9,611 nt of DNA, taken from assembly GCA_019057975.1 (NCBI GenBank), contig JAHLWJ010000164.1, positions 1-9,611 on the forward strand, written 5' to 3'. The notes below the pieces were generated by a model. That model was not told where the DNA came from. It was given only the letters and a program-made list of their open reading frames with translations, and ran no database searches. Below are positions 626-9,611 of this stretch, piece by piece. Within the stretch, counting starts at the first letter, position 1, and every line of letters starts with the position of its first letter. The position numbers and the translations under genes were made by a program. The DNA is from Promethearchaeota archaeon. GTDB taxonomy: Archaea > Asgardarchaeota > Lokiarchaeia > Sigynarchaeales > SOKP01.

Positions 626-2623
626 ATGAAAATTGGAAAAAAATTTCCCATTGTTATAGGTTTATTTTTATTTGCGATAATCCCTGTAGCAATGATCCCT
701 GTCACAGTAGCCGATGGGCCCTCTACCTCAGCAATCACCGGTATTCCCGATCAGCGAACTACAGACTCACCTCGTCATCAAACTATGTGGATGGCAGGAA
801 GTTATAATGGTGCAGGTAATTTTATACCATGGAGTACTGGTTTACACCCAGGCACAGATGCAGGAATGTATGAAACCTTATTTGGGAGAAATACTTTAGC
901 CGAAGTGGATGTTCCATGTATAGGTATTAGCTACTCATGGGGCGTAACAGGTGAAAATATAACCATTGAGCTAAATCCTAATGCTAAATGGTCTGATGGT
1001 GAAACAATTGATGCTTCTGATGTAGCATATAGTTTTGAACTTGCTGGAAAACAAGCTAGATATGTAACTGATTTTGCATTAAGATTTGAAGATTTTGTTG
1101 CAGTAGATAATGATACAGTTCGATTTGATATGAATCCTGGTTTTGAATCTAGTCGACAAGTCGAAGTTTGGATAAAAGGTAATATTCCAATTGTACCTGA
1201 ACATATTTGGACAACAATTGAAGCTGAAGAAAGTGATGCGGGTGATTTCTCAATTGCAGCCTTTCAATATGATTGGTTTGATGGAGCAGATACACCAGAC
1301 GAATGGAAAGTAATTTCTGGTCCTTATGCTCCTGTCTATCGAAATGCAATGGAGACAACTTGTATATATCAGTATAGAGGAGAAGATTGGTGGGGTCATG
1401 ATATTCTTTACACAGATCTCCCAAATTATTCACCAGACCAAAGAGATAATGCTGGCAGTGAAGGTGGTATTCCTAAATATTTGGCATCTAACGCATTTTG
1501 GGATAATCCCGCACAAGATCTTGCCTTTATTGAAGGAACAATAGATTTATTTGCTGGTTATTATGCCAACATCTGGGAAGTTTGGGAAAACGCTAAGGAA
1601 GGTAGCTCCCAATCATATGTTACTACTTGGTATGGTCATAATTCTCCTTACCAATTAGCAGCAAGTGCTCTTATAAATCTTGTTCCTAATCATCTTCTTG
1701 CAGATTCACCTTTAGGTATAGCAAAATTCAGAGAAGCCTTAGCATATGCTATTAATTATGCCCCTATTCCAGGTGATGCCGCTTCGGGATATTGGACACA
1801 AGCTAAACCTGGATGGCTCGATGATAATAGTATATTACATGTGCCCTATTATAATGCATCTATTACCGCAAAATACCAAAAATCTTTGAATGTTACCAAA
1901 GCTAAACATATATTAGGAAACATTACTGGTATGACAGGTTCTGTAGCTACCGGATGGATATATAATGGAGATCCTGTTGGACCTTACACGGCAATTACTC
2001 CTACTGGTTGGACTGATACTACTGCATTTACAACCTATGTAACAGCAGATATAAAAGCGAATTTAGGTATCGAAATAACAGTTTCGGAAGTTGAATATGG
2101 AACTGTTTATCAAGATAAAATAGCTAATCAAGACTTTGAGTTTGCTATGGGTTGTGTTGGAAATCGGTTAGCAGATCCTCCTGCAAGATTTCTTGATTAT
2201 CCGAGAGGAGAACACTTATGGAATAAAAACCAAAGCAGCTGGGATAACGATGAATTTAATGACTTATGGAATTTATTAGATGCTGCACCAGAAACAGAAT
2301 ATGCACAACATCTCGATAGAATGCAAGAAATTTTAGCTCAAGAAGTTCCAGAAATTCCTGGTTTTGTTAATGGATATTGGTATGCTGTTAATGAATATCT
2401 ATGGACAGGCTGGGCTACTGAAGATAATGACTTCCAACAATTAATTACCTCTTGGACAGATGATCAATTCGTCATGAAAACAAGATTAATGCTGAACTTA
2501 GTAAACACTGGCAGAAAACCATCAGCAGAAGTGATTCCATGGTTTGGTTTAGAAATCTTTGTATTGCTTGGGATTATTTCTATTACAATTCTAACTGGTT
2601 TTAGATTAAAAAGAAAGAGGTAA
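626..2623 (+). CDS. Extracellular sugar/oligopeptide-family solute-binding protein, membrane-anchored
   Basis: This 665-residue protein is the substrate receptor of the importer, family 5 extracellular solute-binding proteins (SBP_bac_5). Residues 1-29 form a Sec signal peptide: basic start, hydrophobic stretch at 8-27, and likely cleavage after VTVA. There is no lipobox Cys. Residues 121-140 (KWSDGETIDASDVAYSFELA) are the family signature. Residues about 637-660 form one transmembrane helix followed by RLKRKR, so the mature protein is anchored by its C-terminus, a layout common in archaea. The mature domain is rich in Trp and Tyr and has several N-x-S/T sequons, consistent with sugar binding and possible surface glycosylation. 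The substrate is not shown by the sequence; cellobiose or cello-oligosaccharides are inferred from the downstream phosphorylase and from known cellobiose-binding members of this family in Thermotoga and Pyrococcus. The ATG lies eight bases after GGGG. Confidence 0.9.
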   Translation: MKIGKKFPIVIGLFLFAIIPVAMIPVTVADGPSTSAITGIPDQRTTDSPRHQTMWMAGSYNGAGNFIPWSTGLHPGTDAGMYETLFGRNTLAEVDVPCIGISYSWGVTGENITIELNPNAKWSDGETIDASDVAYSFELAGKQARYVTDFALRFEDFVAVDNDTVRFDMNPGFESSRQVEVWIKGNIPIVPEHIWTTIEAEESDAGDFSIAAFQYDWFDGADTPDEWKVISGPYAPVYRNAMETTCIYQYRGEDWWGHDILYTDLPNYSPDQRDNAGSEGGIPKYLASNAFWDNPAQDLAFIEGTIDLFAGYYANIWEVWENAKEGSSQSYVTTWYGHNSPYQLAASALINLVPNHLLADSPLGIAKFREALAYAINYAPIPGDAASGYWTQAKPGWLDDNSILHVPYYNASITAKYQKSLNVTKAKHILGNITGMTGSVATGWIYNGDPVGPYTAITPTGWTDTTAFTTYVTADIKANLGIEITVSEVEYGTVYQDKIANQDFEFAMGCVGNRLADPPARFLDYPRGEHLWNKNQSSWDNDEFNDLWNLLDAAPETEYAQHLDRMQEILAQEVPEIPGFVNGYWYAVNEYLWTGWATEDNDFQQLITSWTDDQFVMKTRLMLNLVNTGRKPSAEVIPWFGLEIFVLLGIISITILTGFRLKRKR

Positions 2624-2659
2624 TAGATAAAAGCATATATAATTTTAAAAATAAATAAC

Positions 2660-2672
2660 TTTTTTTTCTTTT
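2660..2672 (+). terminator. T-rich tract, possible partial terminator after the binding-protein gene
   Basis: Eight T, one C and four T occur 36 bases after the binding-protein stop. Archaeal RNA polymerase commonly terminates at oligo-T without a hairpin. Partial termination here would give more binding protein than permease, a usual ratio for ABC importers. It is followed by a candidate new promoter. Confidence 0.35.
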
Positions 2673-2700
2673 ATTATTACGATTAAATATTTAAATCATT

Positions 2701-2720
2701 AAGGAAACTATAAAATACAA
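2701..2720 (+). promoter_or_regulatory. Candidate internal promoter before the permease genes
   Basis: AAGGAAA followed by CTATAAAATA resembles a BRE plus TATA element. It predicts a start near 2735-2740, only about 7-12 bases before the permease ATG at 2747. That ATG has no Shine-Dalgarno motif, which fits a nearly leaderless transcript. Confidence 0.4.
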
Positions 2721-2746
2721 ACAAACTTCTTTACTCTGATACTATA

Positions 2747-3844
2747 ATGAAGCTAACAGAAATGGGAATAATAGAGAAAAAAGAAAATGAAGAACAGGAT
2801 TCTTTTTCTGAATCAAGCGAAAAACAAAGTACTTTTAAAAAATTCATTTCAAATTCCTTTCTACATATGGCTATAAAAAAAGGAATTTTCTATTTTGTTG
2901 TATTTTTCATCGCACTCACATTGGCTTTTCTGATACCCAGACTGGTAGAGGGGAATATTTTAGAATATATTTATCAAAGACCACAAGGAACCCCTCAGGC
3001 AGTGTGGGATGAAGAGATAAAGCAGTTGGAAGAGTATTTAGGGTTAAATTATCCTCTTCATATTCAATATATTAATTTCTTAAGAAGTTTCTTTTTTGAA
3101 TTTGATTTAGGATATTCTACGTTATTTAGGCTTGAACCGGTAATAAATATAGTTGAAAGAACACTTCCCTATACTTTAATGTTAGTTGTTCCAGTTTTAT
3201 TAATTACTTTTTTCATTGGAAATTGGATTGGAGCCCGTGCGGGGTATTCTGGAAAAAGAAAAGATAAAATCGCTTATTATGTGTTTATAGTATTACAAAC
3301 AGCACCTTTTTTTTGGTTGGGCTATGTATTTGTGGATTTGTTTATTGTTGAATTAAACTGGTTCCCTTATGGAGGAACTGTACCGCCATGGGCATGGGAC
3401 TGGAATGCAATATCTACAATATTTGATCATTTCTGGTTACCTTTTGTAGTTTTAATCCTTACAAATATTGGAGGATGGTCTACTGGAGCATATTCACTTA
3501 TGACTTTTGAAAAAGGTGAGGATTATTTAGCATATGCAAATAAATTAGGATTTAGAGATAAAACAATGCGTAAATATGCGTTTCGTAATAGTATGTTGCC
3601 ACAATTTACTGGATTAAATTTACGTTTTAATGGATTAATTGGGGCAACATTGATTACGGAAGTAATATTTAATTTTCCTGGTTTAGGGGCTACAATGCTT
3701 CTAGCTTTTAAAAATCATGATTATAATTTAATTATTGGAACTTTTATAATAACTATTATAATAGTAGTTGTGGGAAATTATTTAATAGACATGTGTTATG
3801 CCGTACTTGATCCCAGAATACGAGTTGGAGGTAAAGGTGAATAA
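2747..3844 (+). CDS. ABC importer permease, DppB/OppB type
   Basis: This 365-residue integral membrane protein is one of the two pore subunits. A polar, acidic and Ser-rich cytoplasmic extension covers residues 1-43, longer than in typical DppB proteins. Hydrophobic segments lie at about 47-66, 141-164, 177-200, 228-250, 290-312 and 328-352. The extracytoplasmic loop between the first two contains LGLNYPLHIQYINFL and LGYST, as in this family. The EAA loop that docks the ATPase runs from E258 to P285 (EDYLAYANKLGFRD, then NSMLP). The C-terminus YAVLDPRIRVGGKGE is the family ending. The ATG at 2747 lacks a ribosome-binding motif; an ATG five codons later is possible. The next gene begins five bases after the stop, so B and C are surely co-transcribed. 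Confidence 0.92.
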   Translation: MKLTEMGIIEKKENEEQDSFSESSEKQSTFKKFISNSFLHMAIKKGIFYFVVFFIALTLAFLIPRLVEGNILEYIYQRPQGTPQAVWDEEIKQLEEYLGLNYPLHIQYINFLRSFFFEFDLGYSTLFRLEPVINIVERTLPYTLMLVVPVLLITFFIGNWIGARAGYSGKRKDKIAYYVFIVLQTAPFFWLGYVFVDLFIVELNWFPYGGTVPPWAWDWNAISTIFDHFWLPFVVLILTNIGGWSTGAYSLMTFEKGEDYLAYANKLGFRDKTMRKYAFRNSMLPQFTGLNLRFNGLIGATLITEVIFNFPGLGATMLLAFKNHDYNLIIGTFIITIIIVVVGNYLIDMCYAVLDPRIRVGGKGE

Positions 3845-3849
3845 AAAAT

Positions 3850-4773
3850 ATGACTAAAGAAATGTTATTAGAGACAAAAGGACCAGAATTAGAAGATAGT
3901 TCTTTTAAAGAAGTCTTAAAAGAGAAATATCATAATGCTATGGCTCGATATAAAGCTCAATTAATTTTGCTATTTGTTTTTTTGGTTGTAATATTGATAA
4001 TTGTAATTTTAACATATATTCCTCCCTTTAATGAACCTGAGAAAGTTTATTGGGTAGAAGGTAGCAGAGATAATTTTAGGGATCCAACATTCAAACATCT
4101 TTTAGGGACTGATCAACATGGAAGGGATTACTTAACTCGTCTATTGCATGCTATTAGAAATTCTTTAGTATTTGGTTTTATCACTGGTTTACTATGTACT
4201 GGAATAGCTGTATTTCTAGGTGTAATTGGACCCTTTAAAGGAGGAGTCACAGATACAACTACTTCCTTTATTACGAATATCGCTTTAGTTTTCCCCCAGA
4301 TACCTTTTATTTTATTAATGTCGGCTATTTTACAAACTCGTGAATGGTGGGTAACGATGCTAATCATAGGATTATTCACCTGGCCTTGGGCTGCACGTTC
4401 TATTAGATCTCAAGTTTTGACATTAAAAGAAAGAAATTATGTAAAAGTTGCAAAAATGTCCGGCTTAAAAGAGTCGAAAATAGCTTTCGTAGAAGTTTTA
4501 CCTAATGTGCTACCCTATATATTCTTGGCTTTTATTATATTTTTAGGTAATGCTATTATAATTGAAGCAGGAATAGCAATTATTGGATTAGGTCAACAAA
4601 ATTGGTTAACATTAGGTTTATTATTGAATCACGCAGTAAGTTGGGGTTTGATATATCCTAGAAGACTTTATGCTATGTGGTTGACTCCGGGAATTTGCTT
4701 GATATTAATATATTTAGCATTCTTCATAATACACTCAAGTGTAAGTCGGACCTTTGAACAAAGAAAAGCATAA
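3850..4773 (+). CDS. ABC importer permease, DppC/OppC type
   Basis: This 307-residue protein is the partner pore subunit. A cytoplasmic N-terminus of about 36 residues is followed by a first helix at 37-57. The family motif LGTDQHGRDYLTRLLHAIRN starts at residue 85. Further helices lie at about 104-126, 139-161, 166-182, 222-246 and 276-295. The EAA loop covers about 195-222 (RNYVKVAKMSGLKESK, ending VLPNVLP). AGGTGA ends nine bases before the ATG and overlaps the stop region of the B gene, which supports the start and suggests coupled translation. An ATG four codons later is a less well spaced alternative. Length and motifs are ordinary for OppC_N plus BPD_transp_1 proteins. Confidence 0.93.
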   Translation: MTKEMLLETKGPELEDSSFKEVLKEKYHNAMARYKAQLILLFVFLVVILIIVILTYIPPFNEPEKVYWVEGSRDNFRDPTFKHLLGTDQHGRDYLTRLLHAIRNSLVFGFITGLLCTGIAVFLGVIGPFKGGVTDTTTSFITNIALVFPQIPFILLMSAILQTREWWVTMLIIGLFTWPWAARSIRSQVLTLKERNYVKVAKMSGLKESKIAFVEVLPNVLPYIFLAFIIFLGNAIIIEAGIAIIGLGQQNWLTLGLLLNHAVSWGLIYPRRLYAMWLTPGICLILIYLAFFIIHSSVSRTFEQRKA

Positions 4774-4800
4774 AATATTAAAAAAGAAAGAAAATTAAAT

Positions 4801-5799
4801 ATGACAGAAGAAGTAATTAAAATAAAGGATCTTAAGGGCTATTATAGAGGATCATTTGGAGTTGTTCATGCTGTTGATGGAGTATCATTATCTGTTAATA
4901 AGGGGGATATAATGGGAATAACAGGTGAATCTGGATGTGGAAAAACGTCTTTAGCAGAATTAATAACAGGAAGACCGATACAGTTATTGCATCATGAGGG
5001 AGGGCAAGTTTACGTTAATGATCTTTCAATGTATGAATTAGTTGCAGAGGTTGTAAGAAAAGAAATTCTCTGTAAAGTGATGGGATATGTACCTCAAGCT
5101 TCCCAGAATTCATTAAATCCAGTTAAAAAGATTAGAAATTTTATATTAGATGCAATGAGAGAACGCATAGGAACAAAAACTAAAAATAAAGAAAAAGTTT
5201 TAAACCAAGTAGCCGAACACTTTAAAAAATTAGGTTTAGAAAAATCAGTTATAGATAAATATCCACATGAACTTAGCGGGGGAATGAAACAACGTGTCGT
5301 TGTAGGCATATCTACTCTATGGAATCCACTTATCTTAATTGTAGACGAACCGACAAGCGCATTAGATGTAACTACTCAACAACTTTTGATAAAAACATTA
5401 ATTAATCTGAAGAAAGCAGGAATTGTTGAGACAATATTATTTATCTCTCATGATCTTCCCACTCTAGCACAAATATGCAATTTATGCATAATAATGTATG
5501 CCGGAAAAATTGTTGAAAAAGCAAGTATGGATGATATCATTAGTAATCCTCAACATCCATATACTAAAATGTTGATACGTTCAATAGCATGTTTTAACCC
5601 AGATGGATCTGCTGAGACAAACTTAGAGGGAATTCCAGGAAGCCCTCCAGATTTGAAAAAGCCTCCTAAAGGTTGTAGATTTTATCCACGCTGTTCAAGT
5701 AGTTTAGAAAAATGTAAGGAAAACTATCCCCCATTTTTCATTCCAAGAACAGAGAGTAATCAAGTAGCATGCTGGTTATATGAGGAGGTTGGTGATTAA
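4801..5799 (+). CDS. ABC importer ATPase, DppD/OppD type, with four-Cys C-terminal domain
   Basis: This 332-residue cytoplasmic ATPase powers the importer. Visible motifs: Walker A GESGCGKT at 42-49, Q-loop Gln99, signature LSGGM at 158-162, Walker B LILIVDEP at 177-184 with catalytic Glu183, D-loop SALD at 186-189 and switch His217. The Opp/Dpp C-terminal domain follows from about 245 (NPQHPYTKML). It has four cysteines, C292, C298, C305 and C324 (CRFYPRC, EKC, VACW), the spacing associated with a [4Fe-4S] cluster in bacterial DppD/OppD proteins. The gene lies 27 bases after the C permease; only a weak purine-rich stretch precedes the ATG. All ATPase residues are intact. The start agrees with the N-terminus of relatives (first strand EVIKIKDLKGYY). 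Confidence 0.94.
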   Translation: MTEEVIKIKDLKGYYRGSFGVVHAVDGVSLSVNKGDIMGITGESGCGKTSLAELITGRPIQLLHHEGGQVYVNDLSMYELVAEVVRKEILCKVMGYVPQASQNSLNPVKKIRNFILDAMRERIGTKTKNKEKVLNQVAEHFKKLGLEKSVIDKYPHELSGGMKQRVVVGISTLWNPLILIVDEPTSALDVTTQQLLIKTLINLKKAGIVETILFISHDLPTLAQICNLCIIMYAGKIVEKASMDDIISNPQHPYTKMLIRSIACFNPDGSAETNLEGIPGSPPDLKKPPKGCRFYPRCSSSLEKCKENYPPFFIPRTESNQVACWLYEEVGD

Positions 5800-5801
5800 T
5801 A

Positions 5802-6602
5802 ATGAAGAAGGAAATACTAAAAATTCAAAATCTTACAAAAAAATATACCTCTGGTCTTATAAGAACCAAAGAGACAATAGCAGTTAAAGATACCTCATTT
5901 AATTTATATTATGGAGAGATTATTTCTCTTGTTGGTGAAAGTGGAAGTGGAAAAACAACTATTGCTAATTTAATTTTAAGATTTATTCAACCAACTGAAG
6001 GAGAAATATTTTATGATGGGAGAGAAATCCATGATATTCCAACGAAAGATTATTATAAAAATGTTCAAGGGATCTTTCAAGACCCTTATAGTTCCTTTAA
6101 TTATTTTTATAGAATTGATCATATGTTAAATCAAGCTTTAAAATATAGTCTAAAGGGTATTACCAATAAAAGAAAAGCTCTTGAATCTGCGTTAAGTATT
6201 GTTGGGCTTAATAAAGAAGACATTTTAGGAAGATTTCCACACCAAATTTCGGGAGGACAATTACAGCGTGTTTTAACCGCAAGAGCGTTATTGTTTAAAC
6301 CTAAATTAATAATCGCAGATGAACCAACAAGTATGATTGATTCGAGCTCCCGGGCAGATATTTTAAACCTTTTCAAAGAATTAAAAGAAGGAACAACTTA
6401 TACGGAAGGTATATCAATAATATTTATTACACATGATATAGGACAAGCGCAATACATATCAGATCGGGTAATAGTTATGAAAGAGGGGATTATCGTAGAG
6501 GAAGGTCTAACGGATGACGTTTTTCTCAATCCTCGTCATCCGTACACTCAAAATCTATTAGGGTGTTGTCCAAGCATTTATCGGAAATGGGAATTTGAAT
6601 AA
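5802..6602 (+). CDS. ABC importer ATPase, DppF/OppF type
   Basis: This 266-residue protein is the second ATPase, expected to pair with the D subunit. Visible motifs: Walker A GESGSGKT at 45-52, Q-loop Gln93 (IFQDPYSSFN), signature ISGGQ at 149-153, Walker B LIIADEP at 169-175 with Glu174, D-loop SMID and switch His211. The Opp/Dpp tail begins at about 243 (NPRHPYTQNLLGCCPS) but ends soon after. The protein is therefore shorter than typical OppF (about 310-330 residues) and lacks the four-Cys segment seen in its partner. The ATG follows the upstream stop by two bases. GGTGA lies six bases before it, inside the end of the D gene, so translation is probably coupled. Confidence 0.94.
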   Translation: MKKEILKIQNLTKKYTSGLIRTKETIAVKDTSFNLYYGEIISLVGESGSGKTTIANLILRFIQPTEGEIFYDGREIHDIPTKDYYKNVQGIFQDPYSSFNYFYRIDHMLNQALKYSLKGITNKRKALESALSIVGLNKEDILGRFPHQISGGQLQRVLTARALLFKPKLIIADEPTSMIDSSSRADILNLFKELKEGTTYTEGISIIFITHDIGQAQYISDRVIVMKEGIIVEEGLTDDVFLNPRHPYTQNLLGCCPSIYRKWEFE

Positions 6603-6620
6603 AGGTAATTAAGTCCCTAA

Positions 6621-6645
6621 ATGCAAATTTAAAATTATATTAAAA
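6621..6645 (+). promoter_or_regulatory. Candidate promoter of the phosphorylase gene
   Basis: In the 108-base gap before the phosphorylase, ATGCAAA followed by TTTAAAATTATAT resembles a BRE/TATA pair and predicts a start near 6655-6665, some 50 bases before the start codon. A promoter would allow the enzyme to be made apart from the transporter; read-through from the importer operon is equally possible. The 14-bp operator word is not present here. Confidence 0.3.
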
Positions 6646-6699
6646 GAGTTCAATTAAAACAATGAAATTCTCTCATTCTTTCTATGTTAAACTCTATAT

Positions 6700-6705
6700 A
6701 GGTGA
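6700..6705 (+). promoter_or_regulatory. Ribosome binding site that decides the phosphorylase start
   Basis: AGGTGA lies five bases before TTG 6711. It overlaps the GTG at 6702, which it therefore could not serve, and an in-frame TAG stop at 6699-6701 excludes any start further upstream. The motif is the same as those used by the C permease and F ATPase genes. Confidence 0.7.
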
Positions 6706-6710
6706 ATATT

Positions 6711-9155
6711 TTGAAATATGGATATTTTGATGATGAAAATAAGGAATATGTCATTACAAGACCGGATACTCCTCTTCCATGGATTAATTATATAGGGTGT
6801 GAATCGTATTTTGGTATCATCTCTAACACTGCTGGTGGATTTTCTTTTTACAAAGATGCAGGATTGCGCCGTGTAACTCGATATCGTTATAATAATGTTC
6901 CTACTGATTTTGGTGGACGTTATATATATATTAGAGATAATCAAACTTCAGAATATTGGTCTCCAACTTGGCAACCTACTCGCCATAAATTAGAAAAATA
7001 TAACTGTAGACATGGATTAGGATATACCATAATTAGTTCCATTCACAAAAATATTGAAGCGAGAATCCGTTATTTCGTTCCTCTAGGTGATGATCTAGAA
7101 ATTTGGCAGTTAACTTTAAAAAATCATCGTAAAGATTCAATAGATCTATCAATATTTTCTTGTATCGAATTTTGTTTGTGGAATGCTCACGATGATTCCA
7201 CAAATTTTCAAAGAAATTTTAATCTTGGAGAAACTGAGGTCGAAAATGGAGTAATTTATCATAAGACTGAATATCGTGAAAGGAGAAATCATTTTGCGTT
7301 TTTCGCTTGTTCAGAATCCATTGAAGGATTTGATACACAGAGAAATGATTTTTTGGGCTTATATCGGGGTTGGGATAACCCTCTTGTAGTAGAGGAAGGA
7401 CAATCATCTGATTCTGTAACCCATGGTTGGGCACCTATAGGTTCTCATCATTTGAAGATTACCCTAGATCCTGGTGAAACACATCAGATTATTTTTCTTC
7501 TTGGTTATCATGAAAATGAAGCTAGCCAGAAATTTGATCCCATTGGTTCTCAAAAAATTAATAAAACGACAGTTATGAAGATAATCACTAAATTTTTAAA
7601 TCCAATAAATGTTAATAATGCTTTTAAAACTCTAAAGATTCATTGGGAAAAATTACTTGGTGCTATGCAAGTCGATACGCCTGACATTCACACTAATAGA
7701 ATGGTTAATATTTGGAATCCTTATCAATGCGTAATTACATTTAATTTAGCTAGATCTGTTTCACTTTTTGAATCTGGAATTAGTAGAGGGATTGGATTTC
7801 GTGATTCTAATCAAGATTTACTTGGATTTATACATATGGGTCCAACAAAAACCCGAGCGCGAATTTTAGATCTAGCATCTACTCAACTTCTAACAGGTGG
7901 AGCTTATCATCAATACCAACTGCTAACAAAACGGGGTAACAATGCGATTGGGAGTGGATTTAATGATGATCCACTTTGGTTAGTATTAAGCGTTGCATCA
8001 TATCTAAAAGAAACAGGCGACTGGAGTATTCTAGATGAGCAACTACCCTATGAGAACAAGTCTGGAACTGAACAACCGCTAATTCACCATTTAAAGAGCA
8101 GTCTACAATATATATATGAACGATTAGGTCCACATGGATTACCACTTATCGGTCGAGCAGATTGGAATGATTGTTTAAATTTAAACTGTTTTTCTGAAGT
8201 TCCTGGTCAACCTTTCCAAACGACAAAAAATAAGGAGGGAAAAGTAGCTGAATCGATGTTTATAGCTGCTTTATTCGTTAAAGTAACAAAAGAATTTGCC
8301 AAAATCCTTCAACAAAGGGGTTTAGTTGATCAGTCGAGGAAGTATCTCGAATGGGCAGAAAAAATGAATTCCACGATTCTGAATTATGGTTGGGATGGAG
8401 AGTGGTTTATTCGGGCTTATGATGATTTTGGAAATAAGGTTGGTTCTCATGAATGCGAAGAGGGTCAAATTTATATTGAACCACAAGGATTTTGTATTTT
8501 TGCTGGAGTGGGTATAAATGAAGGCTTAGCAGAAAAAGCACTCTATTCTGTGAAGAATAAATTGGCTACACCTCATGGTATCATGCTACTTCAGCCAGCA
8601 TATTCCAAATATTACTTACATTTGGGTGAAATCACTTCTTATCCCCCAGGATATAAAGAAAATGGTTCAGTATTTTGTCATACAAATCCTTGGATTATGA
8701 TCGCCGAAACAATGGTTGGAAACGGTGATACTGCTCACGATTACTACAATCTTATTAATCCCTCAGCACGAGAAGCTATTAGTGAAGTTCATCGATGTGA
8801 ACCATATATTTATGCCCAAATGATCGCTGGAAAAGATGCTCCGACTTTTGGAGAAGCCAAAAACTCTTGGTTAACTGGAACTGCCGCTTGGAATTTTATA
8901 GCGATAACAAATTATATCCTTGGCATACGCCCTGTTTACAACGGTCTATTAATTTCACCAATAATCCCTAAAAATTGGTCTGGATTTAAAGCAACTCGCA
9001 TCTTCCGTAATGTAAAATATCAAATTTCTGTAGAAAGGGTTGGTACTGGTAATAAACCAATAATATATGTAGATGACAAACAAATTGAAGGAAATATCAT
9101 ACCATTACCACCTCAAGGGATTAAAGAAAGATTCATAAAAGTTAAAATCTCCTGA
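6711..9155 (+). CDS. cbp: Cellobiose phosphorylase, GH94 (TTG start)
   Basis: The enzyme reversibly converts cellobiose plus phosphate to alpha-glucose 1-phosphate plus glucose (EC 2.4.1.20) in the cytosol; no signal peptide is present. From TTG 6711 it has 814 residues, as expected (about 810-825). The N-terminus then reads MKYGYFDDENKEYVITRPDT, matching bacterial cellobiose phosphorylases from the first residue. Domain order follows GH94: N-terminal beta-sandwich, helical linker, alpha/alpha six-barrel from about residue 330, and C-terminal beta domain. Landmarks include NAHDDSTNFQRN, YHKTEYRERR, GFRDSNQD at 362-369, and GRADWNDCLNLNCF at 481-494 carrying the catalytic acid (D487 or D484). 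H657 (VFCHTNPW) and T722-G723 (LTGTAAW) are the phosphate contacts known from GH94 structures. All look intact. Cellodextrin or laminaribiose phosphorylase is less likely given the N-terminus. It probably acts on sugar delivered by the upstream importer. Confidence 0.95.
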   Translation: MKYGYFDDENKEYVITRPDTPLPWINYIGCESYFGIISNTAGGFSFYKDAGLRRVTRYRYNNVPTDFGGRYIYIRDNQTSEYWSPTWQPTRHKLEKYNCRHGLGYTIISSIHKNIEARIRYFVPLGDDLEIWQLTLKNHRKDSIDLSIFSCIEFCLWNAHDDSTNFQRNFNLGETEVENGVIYHKTEYRERRNHFAFFACSESIEGFDTQRNDFLGLYRGWDNPLVVEEGQSSDSVTHGWAPIGSHHLKITLDPGETHQIIFLLGYHENEASQKFDPIGSQKINKTTVMKIITKFLNPINVNNAFKTLKIHWEKLLGAMQVDTPDIHTNRMVNIWNPYQCVITFNLARSVSLFESGISRGIGFRDSNQDLLGFIHMGPTKTRARILDLASTQLLTGGAYHQYQLLTKRGNNAIGSGFNDDPLWLVLSVASYLKETGDWSILDEQLPYENKSGTEQPLIHHLKSSLQYIYERLGPHGLPLIGRADWNDCLNLNCFSEVPGQPFQTTKNKEGKVAESMFIAALFVKVTKEFAKILQQRGLVDQSRKYLEWAEKMNSTILNYGWDGEWFIRAYDDFGNKVGSHECEEGQIYIEPQGFCIFAGVGINEGLAEKALYSVKNKLATPHGIMLLQPAYSKYYLHLGEITSYPPGYKENGSVFCHTNPWIMIAETMVGNGDTAHDYYNLINPSAREAISEVHRCEPYIYAQMIAGKDAPTFGEAKNSWLTGTAAWNFIAITNYILGIRPVYNGLLISPIIPKNWSGFKATRIFRNVKYQISVERVGTGNKPIIYVDDKQIEGNIIPLPPQGIKERFIKVKIS

Positions 9156-9197
9156 AAGACAATACTGAAGTGAAGTGCTTTTTAACAATATAGATAC
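9156..9197. other. Short spacer after the phosphorylase
   Basis: Between the phosphorylase stop and the recognisable gene fragment there is only a T5 run at 9179-9183, which might help termination on the plus strand. The minus-strand reading frame of the fragment stays open through here but shows no recognisable similarity. Confidence 0.3.
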
Positions 9198-9353
9198 TTT
9201 TATGAAACCAAATCCTTCCTGTTCAATTCCTTATACCATAATATCTGTGAGATGCTTTAAATCTCCAACAAATCCTCTTGCTATGAAGATAGCCCTCGCA
9301 TCAATCATTAAAGACATTAGATTATATTGATCTTTGTAATTTACTCTTGGTGT
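9198..9353 (-). pseudogene. Fragment of a 2-oxoacid:ferredoxin oxidoreductase beta subunit
   Basis: On the minus strand one frame reads TPRVNYKDQYNLMSLMIDAR, then AIFIARGFVGDLKHLTDIMV, then a TAA stop (9233-9231), then GIEQEGFGFIK. This resembles a segment of the thiamine-diphosphate beta subunit of pyruvate/2-oxoglutarate ferredoxin oxidoreductases, where a conserved stretch has the form 'NP..LAL..GATF.ARG..GD.KHL..I...GIEHKGF.F.DV.SPC'. Here the glycine of GAT is replaced (DARA), a stop interrupts the helix, and the expected DVxSPC after GF.FI is degraded to KVSI. Upstream the frame is closed by a TGA inside the GH1 gene; downstream it dissolves before the phosphorylase. The fragment has no start and is too short to be functional. 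It is evidence of an older gene at this site. The similarity is from memory of family sequences, not from a search. Confidence 0.65.
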
Positions 9354-9611
9354 TAACTTTGGAAATCAAAACCATTTTTCATTATAACATCTCGATACCA
9401 AAGAGCGCTTTTCTTCCATATTCTTTCTTGCGTCTCGAATTCGACTCTAATTATCCCAAAACGTTTTGAATAGCCCCATAACCATTCGAAATTGTCCATC
9501 AATGACCAAACAAAATAACCCTTTAAGTCCACACCATTATTTATCGCTCTACTTGCGGCTTCAAAATAACGCTGAAGATAACTCAAGCGATCGTCGTCTT
9601 GTACTACTTTA
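9353..9611 (-). CDS. GH1 beta-glucosidase, C-terminal end (cut by the window)
   Basis: The minus strand encodes the last 85 complete codons of a glycoside hydrolase family 1 enzyme; the rest lies beyond the right edge. The frame enters as KVVQDDDRLSYLQRYFEA, so the apparent TTG start at 9586 is an internal Leu codon. Next come AINNGVDLKGYFVWSLMDNF, then EWLWGYSKRFGIIRVEFETQ, then SALWYRDVI and a stop at 9355-9353. LKGYFVWSLMDNFEW is the GH1 signature near the C-terminus. Its Glu and Trp contact the glucose in subsite -1; 6-phospho-beta-glucosidases have a different residue here, so a non-phosphorylated substrate is expected, in keeping with an ABC importer rather than a PTS. The acid/base (NEP) and nucleophile (TENG) motifs are outside the window. 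It converges with the phosphorylase gene and probably hydrolyses beta-glucosides in the cytosol. Confidence 0.93.
   Translation of the reverse strand, partial: KVVQDDDRLSYLQRYFEAASRAINNGVDLKGYFVWSLMDNFEWLWGYSKRFGIIRVEFETQERIWKKSALWYRDVIMKNGFDFQS

Follow-up and report, generated by a model that had tools for sequence, protein, structure and literature searches.

A stop-bearing, truncated fragment of an oxidoreductase beta-subunit gene at a probable rearrangement junction between two sugar genes in an Asgard-type archaeal genome

The window, by which we mean the whole 9,611-nucleotide stretch of DNA analysed, carries on its plus strand genes for a family-5 solute-binding protein (626–2623), two permeases (2747–3844 and 3850–4773), two ABC ATPases (4801–5799 and 5802–6602) and a GH94 cellobiose phosphorylase (6702–9155; Pfam PF17167 and PF06165). 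On the minus strand, the 3′ end of a GH1 beta-glucosidase gene (9353–9610; Pfam PF00232, E = 4e-31) is cut by the window edge. The GH94 gene is complete to its usual end, as 19 of 80 relatives align to its residue 816 or 817. Its closest solved relatives are cellobiose phosphorylases over the full length, with 3qde_A scoring 1087 bits and the chitobiose phosphorylase 1v7v scoring 487 bits. The binding protein is closest to oligopeptide-type binding proteins of known structure (2o7i, E = 4.8e-32). These are Thermotoga proteins that bind cellobiose. Judged by these gene assignments, the island (626–9155, with the binding protein, permeases, ATPases and GH94) together with the GH1 gene is likely a cluster for cello-oligosaccharide uptake and phosphorolysis or breakdown. 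Our literature search found no report of cellobiose phosphorylase together with Asgard.

Between the two sugar genes lies a minus-strand remnant of the beta subunit of 2-oxoacid:ferredoxin oxidoreductase (OFOR) at 9195–9365, with 9359–9195 as its firmest extent. The remnant is recognised by the NCBIfam profile NF008820, by our own 48-row HMM and in a codon table, and comprises 57 codons, one of which is an in-frame TAA stop (9231–9233, minus strand, from the codon listing). Read from 9365 to 9195 in a single frame without frameshift, it gives PRVNYKDQYNLMSLMIDARAIFIARGFVGDLKHLTDIMV, the TAA at 9233–9231, and then GIEQEGFGFIKV. The two peptides on which the original prediction was built, separated by a stop in one minus-strand frame, are indeed present, and the full frame makes the match longer than those peptides. 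The predicted location was 9353–9198; the match runs from 9359, perhaps from 9365, to 9195.

The proposed likeness to OFOR beta subunits is borne out by significant profile matches. With the stop written as X, the remnant matches NF008820 (2-oxoacid ferredoxin oxidoreductase subunit beta; PRK11866) at E = 3.5e-10 and TIGR02177 (PorB_KorB) at E = 2.4e-6, and the 39 residues ahead of the stop match NF008820 at E = 1.7e-6 on their own. The PDB chain 5b48_B, a 2-oxoacid–ferredoxin oxidoreductase beta subunit, also matches the remnant (E = 4.1e-5). The NF008820 match covers profile positions 149–197, or 49 of 287 positions. It was originally described as the conserved C-terminal half of the subunit; the subunit was right, but only these positions are present and everything from the S/Q-P-C motif onward is missing. 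The remnant scores at most 39.7 bits against the curated NF008820 cut-off of 402 bits, and is neither full-length nor above that cut-off, as expected because only about one-sixth of the OFOR beta protein is present.

To our own HMM, 51 loci with a blastp hit contributed 48 intact OFOR beta subunits, three having been dropped for E-value or length; all 48 rows come via bacterial genomes. This HMM scores the remnant frame at 37.0 bits, compared with −1.8 bits for the next best piece in the six-frame window; among 300 six-frame shuffles of 9156–9400, the highest score is 3.4 bits. The 57 codons of the remnant align without gaps just after the G-Q-x-S-P-T-S motif of the relatives, and their F-V/I-A-R-G-F core is also present in the remnant. 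Unlike an intact OFOR beta subunit, the remnant amounts to about one-sixth of the protein, contains a stop, and has no detectable preceding or following part.

Intact bacterial relatives align to residues 3–57 of the fragment with an identity of at most 45%, and none of the listed intact matches has an internal stop. A match at E ≤ 0.001 was found in 73 of 301 genomes of one phylum (that of genome G003) and in 47 of 299 of another (that of G020). A search of 5.8 billion proteins with the fragment, padded with X, yielded 27 candidates, none of which matched at E ≤ 10, and aligning the fragment to masked relatives for use as query did not find a close intact relative either. A search of plasmids gave no match; three phage matches of 21–27 bases (E 0.2–0.8) were taken as chance.

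At the GH1 side of the remnant, the GH1 product resembles PDB enzymes up to residue 82 or 83 of its 85 in the five alignments listed. This limit corresponds to 9367–9362, and it coincides with the start of the OFOR similarity at 9365–9359. The two similarities therefore meet within about 10 bases. Among 40 tblastn alignments at E < 1e-3, the OFOR match starts at 9359 in 22, at 9353 in nine and at 9365 in one. The GH1 stop codon (9355–9353) falls inside the OFOR-like DNA, in another frame. At the GH94 side, 31 of the 40 alignments end at 9195, and a 39-base spacer (9156–9194), in which the C-terminal HMM detects no OFOR similarity, separates the remnant from the GH94 stop codon. The remnant thus sits between two sugar genes with both of its ends missing, as had been proposed.

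The missing parts of the subunit were sought on both sides. In intact OFOR beta subunits, the region upstream of the matched stretch carries a GDG motif and binds TPP and metal. No such region was detected beside the remnant: an N-terminal HMM scores −2.4 and −2.7 bits upstream of it in the two frames scored, where the DNA codes for GH1. For the following part, which begins with the S/Q-P-C motif in intact relatives, the C-terminal HMM scores −2.1 bits at best, where shuffles average −1.3. Searching the whole window by tblastn with the 48 intact subunits gave 150 hits at E ≤ 10, and those outside the remnant have E-values of at least 0.027, except for three gapped alignments (L119, L139 and L094) that contain the remnant and extend to 9132–9120. 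This extension holds an LQYC sequence resembling the QPC motif, but we discounted it, its score with the C-terminal HMM being lower than the mean of the shuffles. As to alpha, gamma or delta partner genes, open reading frames from the OFOR loci, searched by tblastn with a limit of 0.01, listed no further intergenic match in the window, which stops 246 bases past the remnant.

We examined the state of decay by comparing the fragment with 39 thinned intact bacterial rows at conservation cut-offs of 60, 70 and 80%. The fragment keeps seven of 15 conserved residues at the 70% cut-off and six of 10 at 80%, and none of the 39 intact rows is so low; with the 60% cut-off, 11 of 21 are retained in the fragment and two of the 39 rows are equally low. 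Two Sulfolobus OFOR chains from the PDB keep 12 of 14 conserved residues each, compared with seven of 14 in the fragment. Over the remnant stretch, the mean identity is 0.42 among the 48 intact rows and 0.33 between the fragment and the intact rows (maximum 0.45). The low count of conserved residues favours relaxed constraint in the remnant, although lineage divergence may account for part of this apparent loss, since the intact comparison rows are bacterial.

The codon composition of the remnant remains gene-like. Its frame has one stop where 5.1 are expected from base composition (probability of one or none, 0.031), and its codon log-likelihood in the OFOR frame is matched by three of 5000 base shuffles, while 24% of the 57-codon windows in resident genes have a codon score no higher. 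This codon signal is not unique, as the AT-rich spacer at 261–625 reaches 9.90 at its best offset, compared with 9.97 for the remnant. The G+C content of the remnant by codon position (0.44, 0.28 and 0.23) is like that of the resident genes, and its overall G+C content is 0.316, compared with 0.164 in the long spacer 261–625. With an in-frame TAA and both flanking parts undetected, the remnant combines a disabling change with truncation, as a pseudogene does. To us it looks like a pseudogene fragment of moderately young age, with few conserved residues yet gene-like codon composition.

Taken as a whole, the stretch is in our view a defunct fragment of an OFOR beta gene, truncated at both ends and lying at a junction of rearrangement in the genome of an Asgard-type archaeon, a reading to which we give a probability of about 85%. 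In the sequence of events that we envisage, a bacterial-type GH1 gene would have been joined into or next to an OFOR beta gene by illegitimate recombination, with deletion of the subunit gene's front part. After that, the GH1 frame would have come to terminate at an out-of-frame TAA within what had been OFOR codons. On the GH94 side the end of the subunit would have been lost separately, and the remnant, presumably without a useful translation product, would be decaying neutrally. The original interpretation is thus partly supported. Its further step, the invasion of an OFOR locus by a sugar gene, would be plausible, and the simplest order would be a resident OFOR gene broken by the later arrival of GH1.

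A gain of the sugar genes has circumstantial backing from the bacterial titles of the GH94 relatives and from the third-position G+C content (GC3) of GH1. The best 80 GH94 relatives listed among genome contigs all have bacterial record titles, and their best segments are 68–69% identical. In the GH1 tail, 29 of 86 codons end in G or C; for the other genes the figure is 588 of 2844 (Fisher p = 0.0067, from 86 codons only), and none of 2249 86-codon windows equals or exceeds it. The GC3 of GH94 (0.211) is not aberrant. The high GC3 of the GH1 tail (9353–9610) hints at recent import. Among bacterial GH94 loci, a GH1 match was found near GH94 in nine of the 84 searched. One of these, in an Anaerolineae MAG (L009, 2543–5268), has a GH1 gene, 57.7% identical, immediately upstream of GH94 and in the same orientation, whereas in the window the two genes are convergent on opposite strands with the remnant in between.

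The alternative that survives best, and that we consider possible though distinctly less probable, is that GH1 and the OFOR beta piece were imported already joined from a donor, so that no resident OFOR locus was broken. The direct abutment of the remnant on GH1 is in keeping with such a joint import, as are the lack of any OFOR trace on the GH94 side and the fact that GH1, if anything, is the compositional outlier. A joint import should, however, have left the two pieces with a shared composition, and the GC3 of the remnant (13 of 57 codons; p = 0.74 against the other genes) is resident-like and differs from that of the GH1 tail, although both samples are small.

A perfect 11-base inverted repeat (9132–9206) may mark a breakpoint. 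One arm (9132–9142) lies in the 3′ end of GH94 and the other (9196–9206) in the end of the remnant, and each encodes FIKV in frame, the first on the plus and the second on the minus strand. It is the only such repeat with a gap of up to 100 bases in the window, and its outer arm stops one base from the OFOR border; the K of the remnant's FIKV is absent at that position in the 48 intact rows. The repeat was noticed post hoc, and 40 of 1000 shuffles of 9000–9611 contain a comparable one. It may be the trace of a break through microhomology or template switching, or it may be chance. A flip of the 53 bases between the arms was rejected because GH94 already ends like its relatives. We regard it as a speculative combination, and an unlikely one, that GH1 took its stop codon from the broken OFOR gene and that template switching at the 11-base repeat created or rewrote the scar's far end. 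If true, the locus would be a readable record of an Asgard sugar island built at the cost of an oxidoreductase gene.

The same repeat bears on the idea that the remnant has acquired a new function, for example as a hairpin that ends or protects both convergent transcripts. It joins the region of the GH94 stop to the end of the remnant with 11 pairs, and the 96 bases at 9120–9215 fold with the repeat on both strands at −12.4 and −13.2 kcal/mol, values that stand without a shuffle control. We think this improbable, as a scan of 9050–9450 found no terminator-like site, no Rfam family reaches its gathering threshold in the window, and the shuffles yield such repeats at the frequency given above. 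We likewise consider it quite improbable that the remnant is an artefact of assembly, produced by two wrong joins or by a sequencing error that created the stop. In favour of an artefact, the remnant is short and the window very probably derives from a metagenome; against it, two false joins 170 bases apart would be required, and chimerism does not produce a loss of conserved residues beyond that of all 39 intact rows at the 70 and 80% cut-offs. A fortuitous likeness within an AT-rich spacer, for which one might cite the lack of any Pfam family at E ≤ 10 and a best identity to an intact relative of 45% over the matched span, is refuted by the profile scores, including that of the unbroken part, and by the shuffles.

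The remnant is therefore a real junction scar. A truncated gene at a rearrangement junction is a well-known kind of event, and the gain from one more case is thus modest. Prokaryotic pseudogene fragments that arise from gene gain and decay (Liu et al. 2004, PMC522871) are likewise truncated, stop-bearing and located beside likely foreign genes; in comparison with those fragments, the remnant is joined so tightly to its neighbour that the neighbour's stop codon falls inside it. Few features record directly what a newly gained gene has displaced, and gene fragments at junctions belong to them. Should the OFOR locus indeed have been invaded, a sugar-breakdown island grew over a gene for a ferredoxin-linked oxoacid oxidoreductase in an Asgard-type archaeon, and the breakpoint of GH1 is fixed to about 10 bases.

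The first permease has its best relatives at 92, 88 and 83% identity, and the close ones that are named belong to Promethearchaeota, Lokiarchaeota and Hermodarchaeota, which makes an Asgard archaeon the most likely host; viral contigs searched with this permease gave no relative. A partial minus-strand gene (3–260) at the edge of the window, divergently oriented to the transporter genes, encodes an ArsR/HTH_20-like helix-turn-helix domain and is a possible regulator of that cluster.
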